From Suttonella sp. R2A3 (GTDB taxonomy: Bacteria > Pseudomonadota > Gammaproteobacteria > Cardiobacteriales > Cardiobacteriaceae), in the NCBI RefSeq assembly GCF_021513215.1, contig NZ_CP090975.1, forward strand, positions 1,419,501-1,483,500: a DNA stretch of 64,000 bases, read 5' to 3'. Numbering within the stretch: the first letter of the stretch is position 1; the number at the start of each line of letters is the position of its first letter. Positions 21,637-32,378 of the stretch are shown here, in pieces. The notes below the pieces were generated by a model that was not told the origin of the DNA, ran no database searches, and worked only from the letters and a program-made list of their open reading frames with translations. The translations under genes were made by a program, and so were the position numbers.

Positions 21637-21854
21637 ACTGTATTCAGTGTTTTAATTGATAGTGTATATAATATAAAAACCCTAAGATTTCCGATGAAAA
21701 ATATTTTGGTGTCTGTCCAAATTAATCTATCGATAAAAATTGAAACCAGCAAGGCTTGGTGTTATAAATAATTGTTAACAAGTGAATTATAGGGATGTTG
21801 TAGTGTGTGCCTATGAATGGTTTGTTATTTGTCTAGATCACTGTGAGGAACTTT

Positions 21855-22955
21855 ATGACGTTTCAAAGCTCAGAGATATTTATTATAGATGGAAAGAAAA
21901 TAGGTGTAGATGCTGGTTTATGCCCTGAGTTGCCTAAAAATCATCCCCGAATTTTATATTCCGCAAAATACGGAGTTGCTTCATTTTGCTGGCGAGAATA
22001 TATTGGGACTTGGGAGATAAAAAATGGGGGGTTATACCTTGTTGATCTTGGGGGCAACTACACTCTAAAAGACGGAGAGCCTATATTGGCTGAATGGTAC
22101 ACAGGCGAAATGGTCATTGAGGAACAAAAAGAAAATAGTATAGATTATTTTTTAGACTGCTTTGAGCCGTTAGACGAACCCCGGCCGAGAATCGTCATTA
22201 ATAAAGGGAAAGTTGTTGATATTTCAATGGTAGCAAACCGCCCAATTTATCCTATTCCTGATGCTGATGAAATTAAAAATTTTGTGAAAAGATGTGGGAT
22301 TTCATCGTTGATCCACTTTACAACATTCGATAATGTGGATGGGATCATAAATCATGGAATCCTTGGGAAGAAAACTATAGCAAAGAGAGGGCTGTATTCA
22401 GTATCTAATGACCCACATCGTTATGATGGTGTGGCTGATGCTGTGTGTACTTCTATATCGTTCCCTAACTATAAAATGTTCTTTAAGCTTCAAAAAAATA
22501 ATCGAGAGAAGGATTGGGCAGTGCTAAAGCTTGATCCTAGGATCTTATGGGAAATTCCTTGTGCATTTTGTGTCACTAATGCGGCATCAAGTAAAGTAAA
22601 TAAAATACCTATCGAAGAAAGAAAGAGCTTTAATTCATTTGCTGCGATGTTTGAGGATAGGCCACCAAATATTAAACGTAGTGACTTGGGTATTCCTGAT
22701 AACTATCCTACTGATCCACAAGCTGAAGTTCTTATTTTAGAACCGGTTAGCCCAAATTACATTTTAGATATCTTTGTAAAAGAAGAAGGTAAAATTCATA
22801 ATAAAGAAAGTATACGAAGCTGGCAAACTATAGAGGATTTGCCTGGTTTACATCATTTTAAAATCCGACACGACGAGTCACTTTTTAAGTACAGGAAAGA
22901 CTTCGAATATTGGAGAAATGATCAAATATCGGACGATAACATGCCCGACTTTTAA
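21855..22955 (+). CDS. darT: DarT-type DNA ADP-ribosyltransferase toxin with extra N-terminal domain
   Basis: A 366-residue protein in two parts. Residues about 145-310 are a DarT (DUF4433) ADP-ribosyltransferase domain: IHFTTFDNVDGIINHGIL (153-170) starts the NAD pocket, DPHRYDG has candidate Arg189, ISFPNYKMFF follows, and PTDPQAEVL carries the likely catalytic Glu291. DarT enzymes attach ADP-ribose to DNA bases and are toxic unless reversed. Residues about 30-110 form a second domain with WREYIGTWEIKNGGLYLVDL, typical of an uncharacterised standalone family. ATG 21855 is set by GAGGAA upstream. Composition is clearly AT-richer than the flanks. The adjacent NADAR gene is the expected antidote, which favours a DarT1-like, guanine-modifying enzyme. 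Confidence 0.82.
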   Translation: MTFQSSEIFIIDGKKIGVDAGLCPELPKNHPRILYSAKYGVASFCWREYIGTWEIKNGGLYLVDLGGNYTLKDGEPILAEWYTGEMVIEEQKENSIDYFLDCFEPLDEPRPRIVINKGKVVDISMVANRPIYPIPDADEIKNFVKRCGISSLIHFTTFDNVDGIINHGILGKKTIAKRGLYSVSNDPHRYDGVADAVCTSISFPNYKMFFKLQKNNREKDWAVLKLDPRILWEIPCAFCVTNAASSKVNKIPIEERKSFNSFAAMFEDRPPNIKRSDLGIPDNYPTDPQAEVLILEPVSPNYILDIFVKEEGKIHNKESIRSWQTIEDLPGLHHFKIRHDESLFKYRKDFEYWRNDQISDDNMPDF

Positions 22956-23016
22956 GTATAGAGAAGACTTCGAATATTGGGGAGATGATCGAACATCGAA
23001 CGGTGAAATAACTTCG
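22880..23016 (+). repeat. imperfect tandem duplication of the darT 3' end
   Basis: A 68-bp unit (22880-22947) is followed by a diverged 69-bp copy (22948-23016), sharing among others CTTCGAATATTGG (22901-22913 and 22968-22980); a third short ACTTTTATA begins at 23017. The first copy encodes the last residues of DarT and the second lies past its stop. Read in register, the second copy still encodes FKYREDFEYWGDD against FKYRKDFEYWRND, so it looks like a displaced older gene end. Confidence 0.8.
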
Positions 23017-23051
23017 ACTTTTATAACATAATCAACACATAGAAATATATT

Positions 23052-23753
23052 ATGGCCAGCAGACCAATTTTTATACCGCAAGCATCAGGAAATTTGCTAG
23101 TAAGTACAGAATACGTGGATTTTGAATGGAGTCCAGGGATGGCTGTGAGTCAAAAGCAAAAATCTATTTTATCACTGCATGATGCAGCTATGCGCCTAAA
23201 TATTTGTACAAAGCCACTTGAAATATCGAGTAAATCTAAGAACGATCTCGGTGTAAATTTAAGTGCGTTCAACTTAAAAGGAACAACAAAAAAGCGAGAA
23301 AAAGCATTCACGGTAGAGTCATTATTTCAATCTAGCAAAGTATTTGAGGAAGGGGGACCGTATCGTGATCTTTTAAATGCAAGTTCAAGAATAGCAAAAA
23401 AAGATAAACGTTTACAGGAATCGGGAAGACTTATTGAATTCGATCTGTTTAATGAAAAGTGGCCTCTTGAACCAAAAACAGCATTTTATGACTGGATTTA
23501 CATTAATACCTTGGCAAAAAATGAGGACCTTGTAGAGCAGTTAGAACAATATGACGCCTTTACAGATATAGAATTTAACCCCAAAAAATCTATAAACTGT
23601 CAAGCCTACTCGGTTGCACTTTTCAGGGCATTAACGATGCGTAATTTAATAAGTGATGTTCTCGGTGACAGTAAGGCATATTTTGATATTCTTAAAAAAT
23701 GGCCAGTAAGTAATGCAATTGAAAATACACAGAAACAACCTGGACTACTATAA
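23052..23753 (+). CDS. DarT1-associated NADAR-type antitoxin
   Basis: A 233-residue protein matching what I know as the DarT1-associated NADAR antitoxin family (formerly a DUF). NADAR proteins hydrolyse ADP-ribose from guanine and so reverse the partner toxin. Landmarks: SQKQKSILSLHDAA (33-46), LEISSKSKNDLGVNLSAFNL (56-75), the NADAR-like core ESLFQSSKVFEEGGPY (89-104), WPLEPKTAFYDW, and AFTDIEFNPKKSINCQA (169-185). It lies 96 bp after darT in the same orientation with equally AT-rich codons; ribosome site weak. Assignment rests on motif recall and on the DarT neighbour. Confidence 0.78.
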   Translation: MASRPIFIPQASGNLLVSTEYVDFEWSPGMAVSQKQKSILSLHDAAMRLNICTKPLEISSKSKNDLGVNLSAFNLKGTTKKREKAFTVESLFQSSKVFEEGGPYRDLLNASSRIAKKDKRLQESGRLIEFDLFNEKWPLEPKTAFYDWIYINTLAKNEDLVEQLEQYDAFTDIEFNPKKSINCQAYSVALFRALTMRNLISDVLGDSKAYFDILKKWPVSNAIENTQKQPGLL

Positions 23754-24159: not shown

Positions 24160-27100
24160 CTACTGCCAGCGGCCGATGCCCTTAAATTTATCGACAAAAG
24201 CGGCGATTTTCTCGAACACACTTTGTTTTTTGGTTAAATACTCAGGATCAAGCGGGCCCATTTTTGGCAAGATTTTATTCAGCGCGGTGCCGTTTTCGCT
24301 GGCATAGCCTTTTTTCAGCGACGCTGAAATATAGCGCTTAGCTGCGTCATCATTTAAATCATTCTCTTGCACTAAGGCTTGCGCCTCATCATTCAGCTCG
24401 CCTTGGGCAAAGGTGTAAAACGCATCAATCACACTCGCAGCATCTTCTAGCGCATCAAGCTCGGTTTGGTTGATAAAAGCCATCACCAAATCTTCTTTCG
24501 CGCGGTTGTCTAAGCTGGCGCGGATAATGCGCCGCACTTCGTCTTTTAAATCATCCTTGGTTTTGAGCGCTTTGTTATGCTCGAAAATCAGCTCAAGGAT
24601 ATAGTCTAAGTTGATTTCTTGTGATTTCAGCAAATCCACTTCAAACACCACATCATCCCAATCCAGGCTAGATTGGCCTTCAGCCTCATTCGCTTTTTGC
24701 TGACGCTGCCAATCGCGGATGTCGTTATAGCTAGAGCGATAATCCTGCAGCGCACGCTCAGAAAGCACCGGAATAACCTTCAGCTTCTCAAGGTCTTCAT
24801 CTTCCAAATAATGCTCGTTTTTAAAAGCCTCCACTGCGTTTGCATCGTCTAAATCAACGCGTTGCAGCGCGCGCAAGCTGGTAAATTCATCGTAGTTCTG
24901 TAAGATATTTTCAATGCGCAAATACTCACCAAACAGCTTGGCATACGCTTTTTTGTCTTTTTCTCTCTCAATCTCGCTCGGATCAGGGAATCGGCTTGTC
25001 AGCTCTGTGACCACCTCGGTATAGCCACGCTTGGCTTGTCCAGTCGCGATATCGGTAAAGCCCTTGATGTATTCTTCAAAGCGCTTTTCTAACACCACAT
25101 TTCGCGTATTGCTCTCGCCAAACAAAGTGATCGCGTCAACGGTCGCTTGTTCAAGATCCCTAAAGGTGATGATATTGCCAAAGCTCTTGGTCGCATCATA
25201 AATGCGGTTGGTGCGCGAATACGCCTGAATCAAGCCGTGATAGCGCAGATTTTTATCGACAAACAAGGTATTTAGCTGCGGCGCATCAAAGCCAGTTAAG
25301 AACATCCCGACCACAATCAGCAAATCAATATCTTGGTTTTTAACCTTTTTCGCCAGATCGCGGTAATAATTCTGAAAACCTTTGCTATCAACGCTATAGC
25401 TTGTGCCGAACATCTCGTTGTAATCATTAATCGCTTTGCTTAAGAACTCTTTATTCGAGCTATTGAGCGCAGAAACCTCAAAGCCTTCATCGGGTATATC
25501 GCCGATCGCATCTTGCGTTTCATTCGCGGCAAAAGAAAAGATGGTCGCGATTTTCAGCGGCTTATCGCTATCTTGTTGCAGCCTATGTAGCGTTTCATAA
25601 TACAGCTTCGCCGCCTCAACGCTGCTCACAGCAAACATCGCGTTAAACCCTTTCGCACCAGGGTTTAAACGGTGCGTTTTTTGGCGGAATTTCGCTAATA
25701 CATACTGCGAGACTTCCTCAATCCGCTTAGGATGAAGCAGTGCTTTTTTGTTTTCAGCCGCGCTTAATTTTTCAACATTCTGCTCTTGCTCAAATTGCTT
25801 AAACTGCGGTCGCACATCGTTATAATCCACCTTAAACCGCAGCACCTTATCATCACGGATCGCATCGGTGATCACATAGCTATGCAGCTGTTCACCAAAC
25901 ACCGAGGCTGTGCTTTCGCTACCTAAGGCATTTTCAGGGAAAATCGGCGTGCCGGTAAAGCCAAATTGGTAGAATTGTTTAAACTTCTGCTTTAAATTCT
26001 TCTGCGCCTCGCCAAACTGACTGCGATGGCATTCATCAAAAATAAACACCACCTGCTGATCATACACCGGCAGGCTTTTTTCGCTTTTCATCAAATTATT
26101 GAGCTTTTGGATGGTGGTGACAATAATCTTATTATCATCTTTCATCAGATTCGCTTTCAGCCCAGCGGTGCTGTCTGAACCATTCACGCTATCGGGCGAA
26201 AAGCGCTGATATTCTTTCATCGTTTGGTAGTCGAGATCTTTGCGATCGACCACAAAAAACACCTTATCAATAAACTCCAGCTCGGTGGCAAGCCTTGCTG
26301 CTTTGAAGCTGGTGAGCGTTTTGCCGCTGCCTGTGGTGTGCCAAATATAGCCGCTGCCTTCATTCGTGCGCCATTTTTTCGCCTCGTACGCACTTTTGAT
26401 TTTCCACAAAATGCGCTCAGTAGCGGCAATTTGATACGGCCGCATCACCAAAAGCGTATCGCTCACATCAAACACCGTATATTGAAACAGCACATTGAGC
26501 AGGGTGTTTTTCTGGAAAAACGTCGCGGTAAAATCTTTTAAATCGACAATTAGCTTATTGTCCGATTTCGCCCAATTCATGGTGAAATCAAAGCTGTGTT
26601 TATCGCGTTTGGTGGTGTTGGCGAAATAGCGACTGTCTGTGCCGTTTGAGATCACAAACACCTGCAGGAATTTATACAACGAATTCTCGCTATTAAAGCT
26701 CTCTTTACTGTAGCGGTGAATCTGATTAAACGCCTCACGAATCGCCACGCCGCGTTTTTTCAGCTCAATCTGCACCAAAGGCAGGCCGTTGACCAAGATC
26801 GTCACATCATAGCGGTTAGCGTAGCTGCCGGTTTGCTCAAACTGCTTGATCACTTGCAGCTTATTGCGCACCAGGCTCTTTTTATCGAACAGATAAATGT
26901 TTTGAATTCGCCCATTATCAAACACAAAATCATGAATATAGTTATCATGCACTTTGCGCGTTTTCTCAACGATACCATCGCTGGGATGGTCTAAATACTC
27001 AACCACAAAGCGCTGCCATTCGCTGTTGCTAAAGCGTACTTTATTCAGCGCTTCAAGCTGCACGCGCACATTAGCAAGCATCTCTTGTGGGGTTTTGATG

Positions 27101-27255
27101 TTTGCCTGTTCATAGCCTTGATGCTGCAAATCCGCGATAAACTCGCGCTCAAGCTGATCCTCGTTTTGATACGTTTCTTGCGCCTGCCAATCGCGCTCGT
27201 AGCGATCGAGAATAATAAACTGATTACTTTCCGCGATGGTTTTGTAGCTATACAT
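24160..27255 (-). CDS. hsdR: type IC restriction enzyme HsdR subunit (EcoR124I-like)
   Basis: Restriction and translocation subunit of a type I R-M complex, 1031 residues against 1038 in EcoR124I, with near-identical runs such as [20 protein letters not shown]. The N-terminal nuclease has Asp150 and Glu164-x-Lys166, one position off EcoR124I Asp151/Glu165/Lys167. The SF2 motor follows: TTGSGKT (307-313), DECH (407-410), then [18 protein letters not shown] and QAYSRTNRI. The C-terminal helical region binds the methylase core. Last gene of the operon, 9 bp after rhuM/fic. All catalytic motifs are intact, so it should be active. Confidence 0.95.
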
Positions 27256-27264
27256 AGGTCTGTA

Positions 27265-28272
27265 TCACTCATCTTCTTTTAGTAAAATAAAATGTTCTAT
27301 GAGCCGAATCATTAATGTTTTTTGTTTGGGCAAGCTTTCAGCAACCAATAGCGCAAGCGCAACCAATGTGTTGTCATTAATAAGCTGCTCAACTGGCTTG
27401 GCTAAAAACTGCCGATTTAACTGTAGATACCATAAAAATAAAAAAGCACCGCTGCGTTTGTTGCCATCAGAAAGTGGATGATTCTTTATCACAAGATACA
27501 GCAAATGTGCCGCTCGACTTGCTATATTGGGATAGAATAATTCGCCAGCAAAACCTTGCTCTATGCTTGCCATGGCGGAGGCTAAACCATCACCACGCAC
27601 ATGCCCAAACAGTTCAGAAGCTTCACCTTTAGCCATTAAGTCTTTTTTTAACTTGGCAATAGCAGCCAAAGCATCATTATAAGAAATGGCGCACATGCTT
27701 GTGTGTTGGGTGTTATTGTCAGATAAACTTTGCTCGTCATAGCGCTGTAACAAACTCCAACTGCGTGCATACTCGCTAATAACCGACAGCACCACCGCAC
27801 CATCGTTACTGACCAGCTCTTGGTTAGCTAAAGTCTGCCTGAGTAAGTTAACAATTTGTTCAAACTCGATCCCTTGCTCTTTTAAGCGATGCTGATTGAG
27901 CGTATAACCCTCAACCAAATGCTGCTTCAAAATGCGTGTTGCCCATTGACGAAATTGCACGCCCAAAGCCGACTTTACTCGGTAGCCGACCGATATAATC
28001 ACATCTAGATTATAGTGCTGCGTTTGATAGGTTTTACCATCATCAGCAGTACGTGCAAATTTTGCACATACTGCATGACGCTCTAGCTCACCTTCCTTAA
28101 AGACATTATTGATATGCTTGGTAATCACCGAGCGTTCACGACCAAACAGTTCGCACAGTTGGTCTTGTGCCAGCCACACCGTATCATCATTAAAGGCAAC
28201 TTTTAGCTCAACCTGGTTATCGTCACTGGTAAAAATCTCAACCTGCTCAACATGGGTTTTTAGAGTGCTCAT
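27265..28272 (-). CDS. RhuM-Fic/Doc fusion protein in the hsd operon
   Basis: A 335-residue protein joining an N-terminal RhuM-type domain (about 1-135; TVWLAQDQLCELFGRERSVI resembles a winged-helix DNA-binding module) to a C-terminal Fic/Doc domain. The Fic motif HPLSDGNKRSGA (265-276) keeps His265, the acidic residue, Gly, Asn-Lys-Arg, with Leu where Phe is usual; it would transfer a nucleotide or phosphate to a protein. RhuM proteins are commonly annotated as virulence-related and recur inside type I R-M operons, but their job there is unknown. It starts one base after the upstream remnant ORF. Confidence 0.85.
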   Translation of the reverse strand: MSTLKTHVEQVEIFTSDDNQVELKVAFNDDTVWLAQDQLCELFGRERSVITKHINNVFKEGELERHAVCAKFARTADDGKTYQTQHYNLDVIISVGYRVKSALGVQFRQWATRILKQHLVEGYTLNQHRLKEQGIEFEQIVNLLRQTLANQELVSNDGAVVLSVISEYARSWSLLQRYDEQSLSDNNTQHTSMCAISYNDALAAIAKLKKDLMAKGEASELFGHVRGDGLASAMASIEQGFAGELFYPNIASRAAHLLYLVIKNHPLSDGNKRSGAFLFLWYLQLNRQFLAKPVEQLINDNTLVALALLVAESLPKQKTLMIRLIEHFILLKEDE

Positions 28273-28273
28273 C

Positions 28274-28468
28274 CTATGCCTTTGCTTCTTCAGGTTTTGG
28301 GAAGCTCAACAGCGCATCGAGGTAGTATTCGTATTGCTTTTGCCGCAGCTCGATCTCTCGCGGTAAACCTTCATTTTGGTAAGCGTATTTCGCGTTCAAT
28401 TGCCTCATATGCTTAGCTAAAGTGATCGCAATTTTAGTTTCGACTATCGCTATTGCAGTATCTGCCAT
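28274..28468 (-). CDS. 64-residue ORF ending in an hsdS 3' remnant
   Basis: The first 32 residues match nothing I recognise. From about residue 33 the sequence [17 protein letters not shown] repeats the C-terminus of HsdS (29584-30810), and the DNA agrees at 74 of 82 positions. It most likely is the tail of an older hsdS left when the present hsdS-prrC pair was inserted. Its stop lies one base before the rhuM/fic ATG, the same spacing hsdS has to prrC, consistent with an ancestral hsdS-rhuM junction. It starts 4 bp after prrC; whether it is translated is unknown. Confidence 0.6.
28291..28372 (-). repeat. direct repeat, copy A (hsdS 3' remnant)
   Basis: 82 bp matching 29601-29682 at 74 positions without gaps, including a 34-bp identical block at 28321-28354. 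The two copies lie in the same orientation 1,310 bp apart and enclose prrC. Confidence 0.92.
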
Positions 28469-28472
28469 AGTG

Positions 28473-29582
28473 CTACTCCATGTTATGCCAAAAACTATAC
28501 GTTTCTAACAAGTGCTGCAGCAAAAAGTTAACTATTTGTTGTTCTGGAGCACTTGGCGAAGCTGGTGTTTCGCTGGGTAATGTAGAGTGACTTGTAAATT
28601 GGATGATGCGATTGTAGTAATTATTTTTATCATCTGGCAATAGCTCAGACCACTTCGGATATCCCAAAAAACTCGCAGTTTTTTCATACAAATTGCGCAA
28701 CAATATAAAATGATATCTTTCTATTTCGTTGTCTGAAATTGCTTTTTTAAGTATTTTAATTAAATGTAAATGATAAGAAAAACTTTTGTTTGAATCACCA
28801 TATTTTGTATTAAGTTCATATGTACCATTTGCATGACGCTCTAACAAATAGCACCCTTCTTTTTTCCCTTTTTTATTTAGCTCCAGCTCTTTATAGAGTA
28901 CATTGTAGAATAGTGGATTATGTGTTGTGATTAAAAATTTTAACCTAGATTGAGATGAATTAATCACTTCTGACAGATTAAATGCAAGCTCGATCAAATG
29001 GTTTTGGTCGAGCGAACTCACAGGGTCATCAATAAAAATATGCTCCAGATGGTCAAACTGACTTGTCCCCCTTTCATCTTCTTTATTTAACACACTAATA
29101 ACTTCACTTAGTAGCGTATAAAAAAAGCTCCAAATAAAATTACTTTCTTCACCCCTAGAGATTTTTAGGTCGTCAGATGTCTCATCATCACCATGTTGCA
29201 GTGTAAAGGTTACCTCTGAAAAATCATCATTGAAGCGTGGCGTTAAATTCTTATCGACATATTTCTGAAAATTATTAACAACTTCTTGATCTAGCCCTTG
29301 ATCTTTGAGCATCCATTGCGTAAAAATATTGCGATGAATTTTTAGCAGAGGTGAAGCCGAGTCATTATCCCAATAAAATAAATCCTCCGTAAGCGCGTTG
29401 TAATACAGTATGTTACGATACCCCAACTCATTATTATTAGACTCCAATGACCTAGACGCAACAAGTTCTGTGTATTCACGCGATAACCGTGTTTTACCTG
29501 TGCCGTTAAAAGCATAGATAAGCTGTACTTTTTTGTCTGAGTTTCTTAGTTGCTGTGCAATTTCCTTTAGTGTGCTGCTCAT
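28473..29582 (-). CDS. prrC: anticodon nuclease PrrC
   Basis: Cleaves tRNA-Lys at the anticodon to halt translation when the partner type IC R-M enzyme is disabled, in E. coli by the T4 Stp peptide. 369 residues (E. coli PrrC 396). ABC-type NTPase: Walker A AFNGTGKT (24-31), signature SRGEES (142-147), Walker B with DDPVSSLD (185-192), His221 switch. The PrrC-specific box [15 protein letters not shown] (260-274) precedes the nuclease residues Arg296, Glu300 and His332, whose 4- and 32-residue spacing equals Arg320/Glu324/His356 of E. coli. It sits between hsdS and hsdR as in the prr locus, with a 1-bp gap after hsdS. AT-rich. Confidence 0.92.
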
Positions 29583-29583
29583 T

Positions 29584-30810
29584 TTACGTCTCTATTTTCT
29601 CAGGTTCAGGGAAGTTCAATAACGCATCACGGTAGTATTCGTATTGCTTTTGCCGCAGCTCGATTTCTCGCGGTAAACCTTCGCTGATGGAGTTTGTGAG
29701 GGTGTCGAAATTGTCTAGGATGGAAATAATACGTTGTTGCTCAGAAATGGAAGGAACTGGAAAGCGGTATTCCATTATTTTGGGTTTGTTTCCACGAGGC
29801 ATTTTTGCACCTTTAGCGTGGCGCATGTTGTACGCAAAAAACTTATCATCAGCTAAGACTTGGTACAGATAGCTTGGAATAATGGATGGATCTTTGGCGC
29901 GAACAGCGAGCACATCACCATTTGTACCGCCTTCACGATCTGCTTGCCATATTTTCTTTAAATAAGGTCTGATATTCCCTATCAAAATATCCTCGGTATT
30001 GTATTTAGTTAAATTACCATTAGTAGGAACGTGTTCAGATGGTTTTTTGCCAGCTCGATTTTGTAGAAGACTATCAACGCTTACATAGTTAGATTCATTA
30101 AGTTTTTCAAAGTTAATGCGGTCTTTTGAGTATTTAGCTACTTCCCCCAAAGTTTTCCACTCGACCTCATCATCTTCAAAGGTAAGTAATTTATCACGGT
30201 AGTAGTTGTATTGTTTTTCGCGTGCGCTAAGCTCATTGGTAAGCTCATTGGTAAGCTCATTGGTAAGCTCGGTAAAGGTATCCAAAATCCGCACAATTTC
30301 TTCTTGGACAGCAAGCGGTGGGATGGGGATTTCAAATTTTTTAAAGCCATTCATATCCACTGAGGCAAAGCTAGATTGTGTCGTATTCCTTTTGCACCAT
30401 TCAGCAAGTTTAAAGCAGTAATAAAAAATAAATTTAATTACAAATTGTTCGCTGTATTTATTTTTTAAACTTAAATTTGTAAATCTTTGATTCGATAAAT
30501 ATGGCACTGTAACAAGCGCGTGAACACCTATAGTTGCAGAAGTAGCAATGATTATTGAATTTTCAGGGAACAGCTTTCCACCTTTAATGCCAGTTTCAGC
30601 AACCTTCTGAGTAGAGTCATTTAATATTTGGCCATTCTCTCTTATATCTTCCATTCTAAACCAAGGGATTGTGCCATTTTCCCAGTATTCTTTTTTCTTC
30701 TTAGATGGTGTATAGCCATTTTTTAAATTAAAAATTTCTTCAACGGGTTGCCATTCAACCTTAACACCCTCAAGTAGCCGATCTAAAAATCCTAAGGTCT
30801 GCATGCTCAA
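29584..30810 (-). CDS. hsdS: type IC specificity subunit HsdS
   Basis: Determines the DNA target of both methylation and restriction. 408 residues: target-recognition domain 1 (about 20-150), central conserved region (about 170-220), domain 2 (about 225-365) and a C-terminal conserved region ending …FPEPEKIET. The central region has TEL followed by three TNEL units; in the EcoR124 family such 4-residue repeats set the spacer length between the two half-sites. Both recognition domains are AT-rich, as expected of exchangeable modules. Overlaps hsdM by 4 bp; prrC starts one base after its stop. The target sequence cannot be read from the protein. Confidence 0.93.
29601..29682 (-). repeat. direct repeat, copy B (3' end of hsdS)
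   Basis: The intact counterpart of copy A at 28291-28372, encoding the HsdS C-terminal conserved helix. Recombination between the copies would delete prrC and join the body of hsdS to the downstream tail in frame. Confidence 0.92.
30229..30264 (-). repeat. three 12-bp tandem repeats in hsdS
   Basis: Three perfect copies of AAGCTCATTGGT, then a partial AAGCTCGGT, encoding TEL(TNEL)x3 on the minus strand. A unit of 12 bp keeps the frame, so gain or loss changes the protein by four residues. Confidence 0.95.
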
Positions 30811-32378
30811 CCCTCTATGCTGCTGCGATCAGCGGCCTCGATCTCGGCAACGATTGCGTCAATTTCGCTGCGCAGTCGGCTGATGTTGGTTACCGTTTCA
30901 GCAAGTTCGGCATTGAGTTCGGTGATGTTAATTTTTTCGCGGGTGTCTTTCGGCGCAACATAGGCGCTGACTGAGAGGTTGTAGTCGTTATCTCTAATCG
31001 TTTCAAGGCTGACCGATTGCGCGATATGATTAACGTCTTCTTTGTCGGTAAACAGCGCTAAGATGCGTGCGATATGGTCGTTGGTGAGAACGTTATTATT
31101 GGTTTCTTTTTTGAAAAAGTCTTCGCCGCTGGCGTCAATAAACAGGGTATCGCTGTCGGGTTTCTTTTTCGAGAGCACCAAGATATTTACCGCAATTGAT
31201 GTGCCGAAAAAGAGATTCGGCGCGAGTGAGATCACGCTTTCAACGTGGTTATTTTCAATCAGGTATTCGCGGATCTTTTGCTCAGCGCCGCCGCGGTAAA
31301 AGATGCCGGGAAAGCAAACGATCGCCGCGCGTCCTTTAGCGGATAAGTAGTTCAGCGCGTGCAGCACAAAGGCAAAATCGGCTTTTGATTTGGGCGCTAA
31401 TACGCCAGCTGGGGCAAAGCGCTCGTCATTAATCAACGTGGGGTCGTCGCTGCCGATCCATTTCACCGAATAAGGTGGATTGGAGACGATTGCATCAAAG
31501 GGCTTGTCAGCGGCAAAATGCGGGTTAAGCAAGGTGTTATCGAGCTGGATGTTGAATTTGTCGTAGTTGATGTTGTGCAAAAACATATTCATACGCGCGA
31601 GGTTATACGTGGTGTGGTTGATCTCTTGCCCAAAAAAGCCTTCTTCGATGATGTGGTGGTCAAAATGCTTTTTCGCTTGTAAGAGCAGCGAGCCTGAGCC
31701 GCAGGCTGGATCATAAATCTTATTGATCGATTCTTGGCCGTGCATCACAATCTGAGCGAGCAGTTTAGAGACATGCTGTGGGGTGAAGAATTCACCACCG
31801 GATTTGCCGGCGTTTGATGCGTAGTTTGAAATCAGAAATTCATACGCATCGCCAAAGAGATCAATCTCATTGGCTTCAAAATCGCCGAAATCAATGCCAG
31901 CGATGCCTTTGAGCACTGCGGCTAAGCGGGTGTTTTTGTCTTTGACTGTGTTGCCTAAGCGTCGGCTGGTGGTGTCGAAGTCGGCGAATAAGCCTTTGAT
32001 GTCGGTTTCAGATGCGTAGCCGTTGGCTGAGTTTTCTATATCGGCAAAGATGTTGGCGAGGTCGGTGTTGAGGTTGTCGTTGGTATTCGCGCTCGCGGCA
32101 ACGTTAGCAAAAAGCTGCGATGGGTAAATAAAATAGCCTTTGGTTTTGATCGCATCATCTTTGATCGCTTCCAGTCGGCTGTCATCGTCTTTTAGCTTGG
32201 CGTACATTGCCGCGTCTCCGCCGCCTATATAGGTGGCAAAATTCTCGCTGATATAACGATAAAAAAGCGTGCCGAGCACATATTGCTTAAAATCCCAGCC
32301 ATCGACTGAACCACGAACGTCGTTGGCGATTTTCCATATTTGACGCTGCAGCGCGTCGCGTTGTTGGGTGCTGGTCAT
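30807..32378 (-). CDS. hsdM: type IC DNA methyltransferase HsdM
   Basis: Adenine-N6 methyltransferase subunit; with HsdS it protects host DNA, and with HsdR it completes the restriction complex. 523 residues. The N-terminal helical domain includes [18 protein letters not shown]; the SAM motif DPACGSG is at 223-229 and the catalytic NPPY at 300-303; the C-terminal helix bundle contacts HsdS. AAGGATC precedes the ATG. First gene of the hsdM-hsdS-prrC-remnant-rhuM/fic-hsdR operon, overlapping hsdS by 4 bp. Confidence 0.95.

Follow-up and report, generated by a model that had tools for sequence, protein, structure and literature searches.

A PrrC anticodon nuclease gene in a type IC restriction operon of Suttonella sp. 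R2A3 that was probably stitched from two restriction loci

An open reading frame among the type I restriction genes of Suttonella sp. R2A3 raises the question of whether it encodes an intact PrrC anticodon nuclease, and whether its neighbors could keep such a protein latent. We analyzed this locus in a 64,000-nucleotide stretch of contig NZ_CP090975.1 (the window), the coordinates of which are used below. The ORF, hereafter prrC, occupies exactly positions 28473-29582, as originally predicted. It lies on the minus strand, which the original prediction had left unstated, and runs for 369 codons plus a stop without a frameshift or internal stop, while the plus-strand reading of the same positions contains 29 stops. 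An hmmscan search matched nearly the full protein to the PADLOC PrrC model (440 bits, E = 1.3e-132), far beyond a chance match. The product is roughly 56% identical to the 396-aa anticodon nuclease of our E. coli reference, the prr-type locus of strain B1 (L002), which is organized as hsdM-hsdS-anticodon nuclease-hsdR.

We aligned the protein with 83 homologues, including E. coli PrrC, which gave a set of 84 sequences. An ABC NTPase domain is followed by a C-terminal anticodon nuclease (ACNase) domain, and all parts of the PrrC layout that had been proposed could be located. The NTPase motifs comprise Walker A NGTGKT (residues 26-31), the ABC signature SRGEE (142-146), Walker B IDDP (184-187) and the switch TTHNP (219-223), and their columns are conserved across the alignment. 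The PrrC box spans residues 260-274 ([15 protein letters not shown]). Together with D263 within it, the box and the NTPase motifs are nearly or fully invariant. At 17 columns with at least 90% conservation the protein deviates from the family, but the named motifs are untouched except for K143R in the signature. D263, present in 84/84 sequences, aligns with D287 of E. coli PrrC, a residue in contact with the modified wobble base of tRNA-Lys (PMC3014915). The domain layout, nuclease triad, box and tRNA-contacting aspartate are thus all held in common with the E. coli prr system.

The triad R296/E300/H332 falls column for column on R320/E324/H356 of E. coli, as had been claimed, and its spacing R-x3-E-x31-H is identical in 70 of the 84 sequences. 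However, shuffled versions of the protein show the same spacing 3.8% of the time. Exact spacing alone is thus weak evidence, and we dropped it as stand-alone proof; it is the family-wide alignment that carries the assignment. Relative to E. coli PrrC the protein is 27 residues shorter. Thirty residues are missing from the N-terminal half (gaps of 16, 6, 3, 3 and 2), six are gained mid-protein and three are lost at the C end, which places most of the difference where the original prediction had put it. A length of 369 aa is within the natural span of the PrrC set analyzed here (368-469 aa); the range in the literature is 341-416 aa (PMC2610378).

The protein has no sequence relative in the PDB. 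An AlphaFold2 model computed from 77 sequences, with three E. coli rows left out, predicts an ABC-ATPase head (mean pLDDT 80.8, pTM 0.71). Its best Foldseek matches were ABC-ATPase heads from retron and Septu PtuA, Rad50, cohesin and Gabija GajA, all with low TM-scores, and no solved PrrC structure was among the matches listed. These matches are consistent with the N-terminal ABC domain of PrrC.

An ABC NTPase combined with an Arg-Glu-His anticodon nuclease also describes RloC, which has ABC motifs and a triad of the form R-x3-E-x36-52-H (PMC2610378). The protein might therefore be RloC-like, or another ABC-ATPase/HEPN defense protein that acts independently of a restriction enzyme, and the weak matches to PADLOC PDC-S06 and Pfam AAA_13 point in that direction. 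Yet PDC-S06, the next-best PADLOC family, scores 43 bits against 440 for PrrC, and the full-length PrrC alignment contradicts a placement among RloC-like or generic ATPases, the outcome that the original prediction had proposed looking for. RloC proteins are twice the size (658-897 aa), carry a zinc-hook coiled coil, are usually unlinked to restriction genes and excise the wobble nucleotide (PMC2610378). The protein here has a single cysteine and no CxxC, and it lacks both the long coiled-coil insert and the zinc hook. It does have the PrrC-only box, and type IC neighbors were universal among the loci examined. Considering score, size and the missing zinc hook, we rejected an RloC or generic ABC-ATPase identity, which is extremely improbable.

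We next determined whether the neighboring genes could form the type IC partner of PrrC. All lie on the minus strand. The methylase subunit gene hsdM (30807-32378) encodes 523 aa with the motifs DPACGSG and NPPY (TIGR00497, E = 2.8e-195), and its product is 78% identical to HsdM of the E. coli prr-type locus. The specificity subunit gene hsdS (29584-30810, 408 aa) starts at a TTG that overlaps the hsdM stop. It encodes two target-recognition domains, matched by Pfam Methylase_S in two stretches, and these are expected to differ from those of E. coli prr. The motor/nuclease subunit gene hsdR (24160-27255, 1031 aa) encodes an EcoR124-like C-terminal domain (Pfam EcoR124_C, E = 1.4e-66; TIGR00348) and the nuclease residues D150/E164/K166 ([18 protein letters not shown]). 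All three proteins are full length, with catalytic motifs kept in HsdM and HsdR, which agrees with their description as intact and EcoR124I-like. An HsdR with EcoR124_C, matching HsdM and HsdS, and 12-bp repeats in the center of hsdS place the enzyme in type IC. In those repeats a perfect 12-bp unit occurs three times and encodes TNEL x3 (HsdS residues 183-194). Three four-residue repeats are likewise found in E. coli prr, where the HsdS of EcoprrI, like that of EcoDXXI, has three TAEL repeats (PMC3874165). The triple repeat is a likely slippage site that would alter the recognition-sequence spacer, as in EcoR124I/II.

The gene order is hsdM-hsdS-prrC-orf64-rhuM/fic-hsdR. The locus has the hsdM-hsdS-prrC order and type IC partner of E. 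coli prr (hsdM-hsdS-prrC-hsdR, EcoprrI), but differs from a plain prrABCD arrangement in the two genes that follow prrC. On the hsdS side, one base separates the hsdS stop from the prrC ATG. On the other side orf64 and rhuM/fic, which the original prediction had missed, intervene and leave a gap of 1218 bp before hsdR. Since successive genes from hsdM to hsdR follow one another closely, they likely form a single operon; promoter and terminator scans gave nothing better than shuffles. The accessory gene rhuM/fic (27265-28272, minus strand) encodes 335 aa with a RhuM-type N-terminal part and a Fic/Doc domain (Pfam Virulence_RhuM and Fic), and matches the PADLOC candidate family PDC-S23 (E = 1e-160). 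Its Fic motif, HPLSDGNKR, has Leu in the usual Phe position. Beside hsdR, in convergent orientation (21843-23753, plus strand), are genes for a DarT-type ADP-ribosyltransferase (370 aa) and a NADAR-DarT1 antitoxin (233 aa, Pfam E = 7e-92), a second defense or toxin-antitoxin module within the same island.

Linkage of prrC to type IC hsd genes has been published previously (PMC2610378). All 83 fetched homologues, which span Proteobacteria, Firmicutes, Bacteroidota, Chlorobi and Verrucomicrobia, have type IC hsd genes alongside wherever the contig extends far enough, and in most of these loci hsdR directly follows prrC. Several homologues have extra genes in the prrC-hsdR slot, encoding RhuM, a YhcG-type PDDEXK nuclease, Bro-N or AAA_14/DUF4143 proteins, and in these prrC remains open. 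That PrrC/RloC-type genes can be associated with RhuM- or Fic/Doc-like toxins was described earlier (PMC3710099). One homologue locus (L028) has HsdM and HsdR matches over a second stretch, which suggests that another type IC system lies next to the prrC-containing one.

The small ORF between prrC and rhuM/fic gives an indication of how this operon was put together. The 64 residues of orf64 (28274-28468, minus strand) fall into two parts: residues 1-33 resemble an HsdR N-terminus and the remainder is an HsdS C-terminal tail. The first part scored 14.1 bits on a profile of 79 HsdR N-termini, compared with 11.7 for the best of 1906 scored shuffles, and this profile result is moderate evidence for an HsdR-like origin. 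The second part belongs to a 107-bp direct repeat (84.1% identity, E = 4.7e-30) whose copies flank prrC in the same orientation and frame. The upstream copy (29576-29682, minus strand) runs from the hsdS 3' end into the prrC start codon, and the downstream copy (28266-28372, minus strand) from the HsdS tail in orf64 into the start codon of rhuM/fic, so that each ends in the start codon of the next gene. We therefore read orf64 as a recombination scar in which an HsdR-like start was fused to a second HsdS tail.

A repeat of the hsdS tail around prrC was found at two of the 84 prrC loci, the present one and that of Advenella alkanexedens (L035). There the repeat is 77% identical, and prrC is likewise directly followed by a fusion ORF, with a clear HsdR N-terminus (45.6 bits) joined to an HsdS tail. 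The gene after it is a broken rhuM remnant in Advenella, whereas rhuM/fic is intact here. Amphritea pacifica (L038) has an operon of the same type, hsdM-hsdS-prrC-rhuM/fic-hsdR, with a RhuM-Fic protein 58% identical to the one here in the prrC-hsdR slot and an HsdR N-terminal remnant before its gene. Unlike here, however, no HsdS-tail repeat is detectable there, and no fusion ORF corresponds to the remnant.

The simplest reading of these patterns is that an hsdS-prrC-hsdR segment probably recombined into an hsdS-rhuM/fic-hsdR locus, leaving orf64 behind. We infer that the far join of this event linked the hsdR start to the hsdS tail, and the operon would thus probably have been stitched from two restriction loci. 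RhuM-Fic homologues occur in six relatives, none of them beside a comparable type IC operon, and the pre-insertion arrangement is therefore without direct support among near relatives. At one type IC locus of the same family, a RhuM-type gene is placed between hsdM and hsdS.

The in-frame repeats raise the question of whether prrC could leave by the same route. Recombination between the two HsdS tails would remove prrC along with most of orf64, and hsdS, restored to full length, would then directly precede rhuM/fic. A population could in this way lose the suicide gene without losing restriction, and RhuM-Fic would be the accessory toxin left. The recurring HsdR'::HsdS' scar in Advenella would then point to a general way in which type IC operons gain and lose accessory genes. 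We put this forward as a speculative proposal that is unlikely to be correct.

The same scar bears on whether PrrC still works with its partner. Recombination may have changed HsdR stoichiometry or contacts and left an intact PrrC uncoupled or inactive, its gene heading for loss. In favor of this are the 1218-bp gap to hsdR, the truncated HsdR-like and HsdS sequences in the scar, and the occurrence of prrC in one of 57 genomes searched, its own. Conversely, the gene has no frameshift or stop and keeps every catalytic and NTPase motif, the several homologues with an extra gene before hsdR keep prrC open, and an active, uncoupled PrrC would be expected to be lethal. On balance we find uncoupling or inactivity improbable and favor a PrrC that is still coupled to its enzyme.

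In our searches prrC was absent from phage records and had matches on 113 plasmid records. It was also missing from all 56 genomes searched besides its own, which covered relatives at the level of genus, family, order or class. The genome from the same genus lacks type IC hsdR as well as prrC, but conserves the transporter genes that adjoin the operon here. G+C content is about 35% in prrC, compared with about 45% for hsdR and 55% for the neighboring transporter genes. Considering the absence of prrC from relatives and of hsdR from the same-genus genome, together with the G+C shift, prrC was likely acquired by horizontal transfer.

We then looked at whether the host offers the expected target. 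The genome is one contig of 1.99 Mb with 39 tRNA matches, and its only tRNA-Lys gene has the anticodon UUU (L106:1501-1575, at about 453047 of G000:C1). Most pattern-matched relatives, including the same-genus genome, have two copies. A pattern match to an E. coli-type tRNA-Lys arm proved to be a chance hit, and it was the tRNA family model that identified the true gene. Separately, ARAGORN called an 87-nt tRNA-Ile with anticodon AAU (L156:98-184; G000:C1 1852730-1852813) that lies just under the Rfam tRNA cut-off and is probably a misnamed or degenerate tRNA.

The anticodon arm of the host tRNA-Lys(UUU) reads GUUGG-CUUUUAA-CCAAU, with A73. The E. coli arm has the same loop and A73 and differs solely at pair 31-39, which is A-U there and G-C in the host. 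The stronger stem beside the loop raises the possibility that the main target is another tRNA or a modified variant, as stable anticodon stems inhibit E. coli PrrC (PMC3014915). On the other hand, D263 and the surrounding box are conserved, the loop CUUUUAA and A73 are those of E. coli, and the Haemophilus and Streptococcus PrrC proteins have an activity similar to that of the E. coli enzyme (PMC2610378). A main target other than tRNA-Lys is thus very unlikely. Relatives without prrC share G31-C39, so the pair is not an adaptation.

The above results support the original reading of a PrrC with a type IC partner, and silencing, release and tRNA-Lys cutting would follow by analogy with E. coli PrrC. 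We consider it highly probable that prrC encodes an anticodon nuclease that is co-transcribed with an EcoR124I/EcoprrI-like type IC enzyme, stays latent, and cuts tRNA-Lys(UUU) after phage attack on restriction. Its observed basis is the family membership, the intact motifs, the operon linkage, the intact hsd genes and the matching sole tRNA-Lys gene; the conserved wobble-contact residue and the identical anticodon loop strengthen the functional reading. As in E. coli prr, production of PrrC would keep pace with that of HsdS, and the protein would associate with the Hsd complex and remain latent. A phage factor that disables the restriction enzyme on unmodified DNA would lead the NTPase domain to switch the nuclease on, and cleavage of host tRNA-Lys(UUU) 5' of the wobble base would stop translation and phage growth. 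The silencing, activation and cleavage steps, like phage exclusion, are extrapolated from the E. coli protein, and several points weigh against this reading. In most homologues prrC and hsdR are not separated as they are here by orf64 and rhuM/fic, and in E. coli it is HsdR that co-precipitates with PrrC (PMC3014915). The G31-C39 pair may make cutting less efficient, the protein departs from its family at the 17 conserved columns noted above, and we know of no phage inhibitor that acts in this host.

The prrC gene described here adds one well-formed member to the known PrrC family, in a host whose single tRNA-Lys gene would make a PrrC cut hard to buffer. Modestly new is the fossil of operon assembly, in which prrC is bracketed by direct repeats of the hsdS 3' end and accompanied by a chimeric HsdR/HsdS scar. 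Such a fossil suggests a way for accessory suicide genes to join, and possibly to leave, restriction operons that stay functional throughout.
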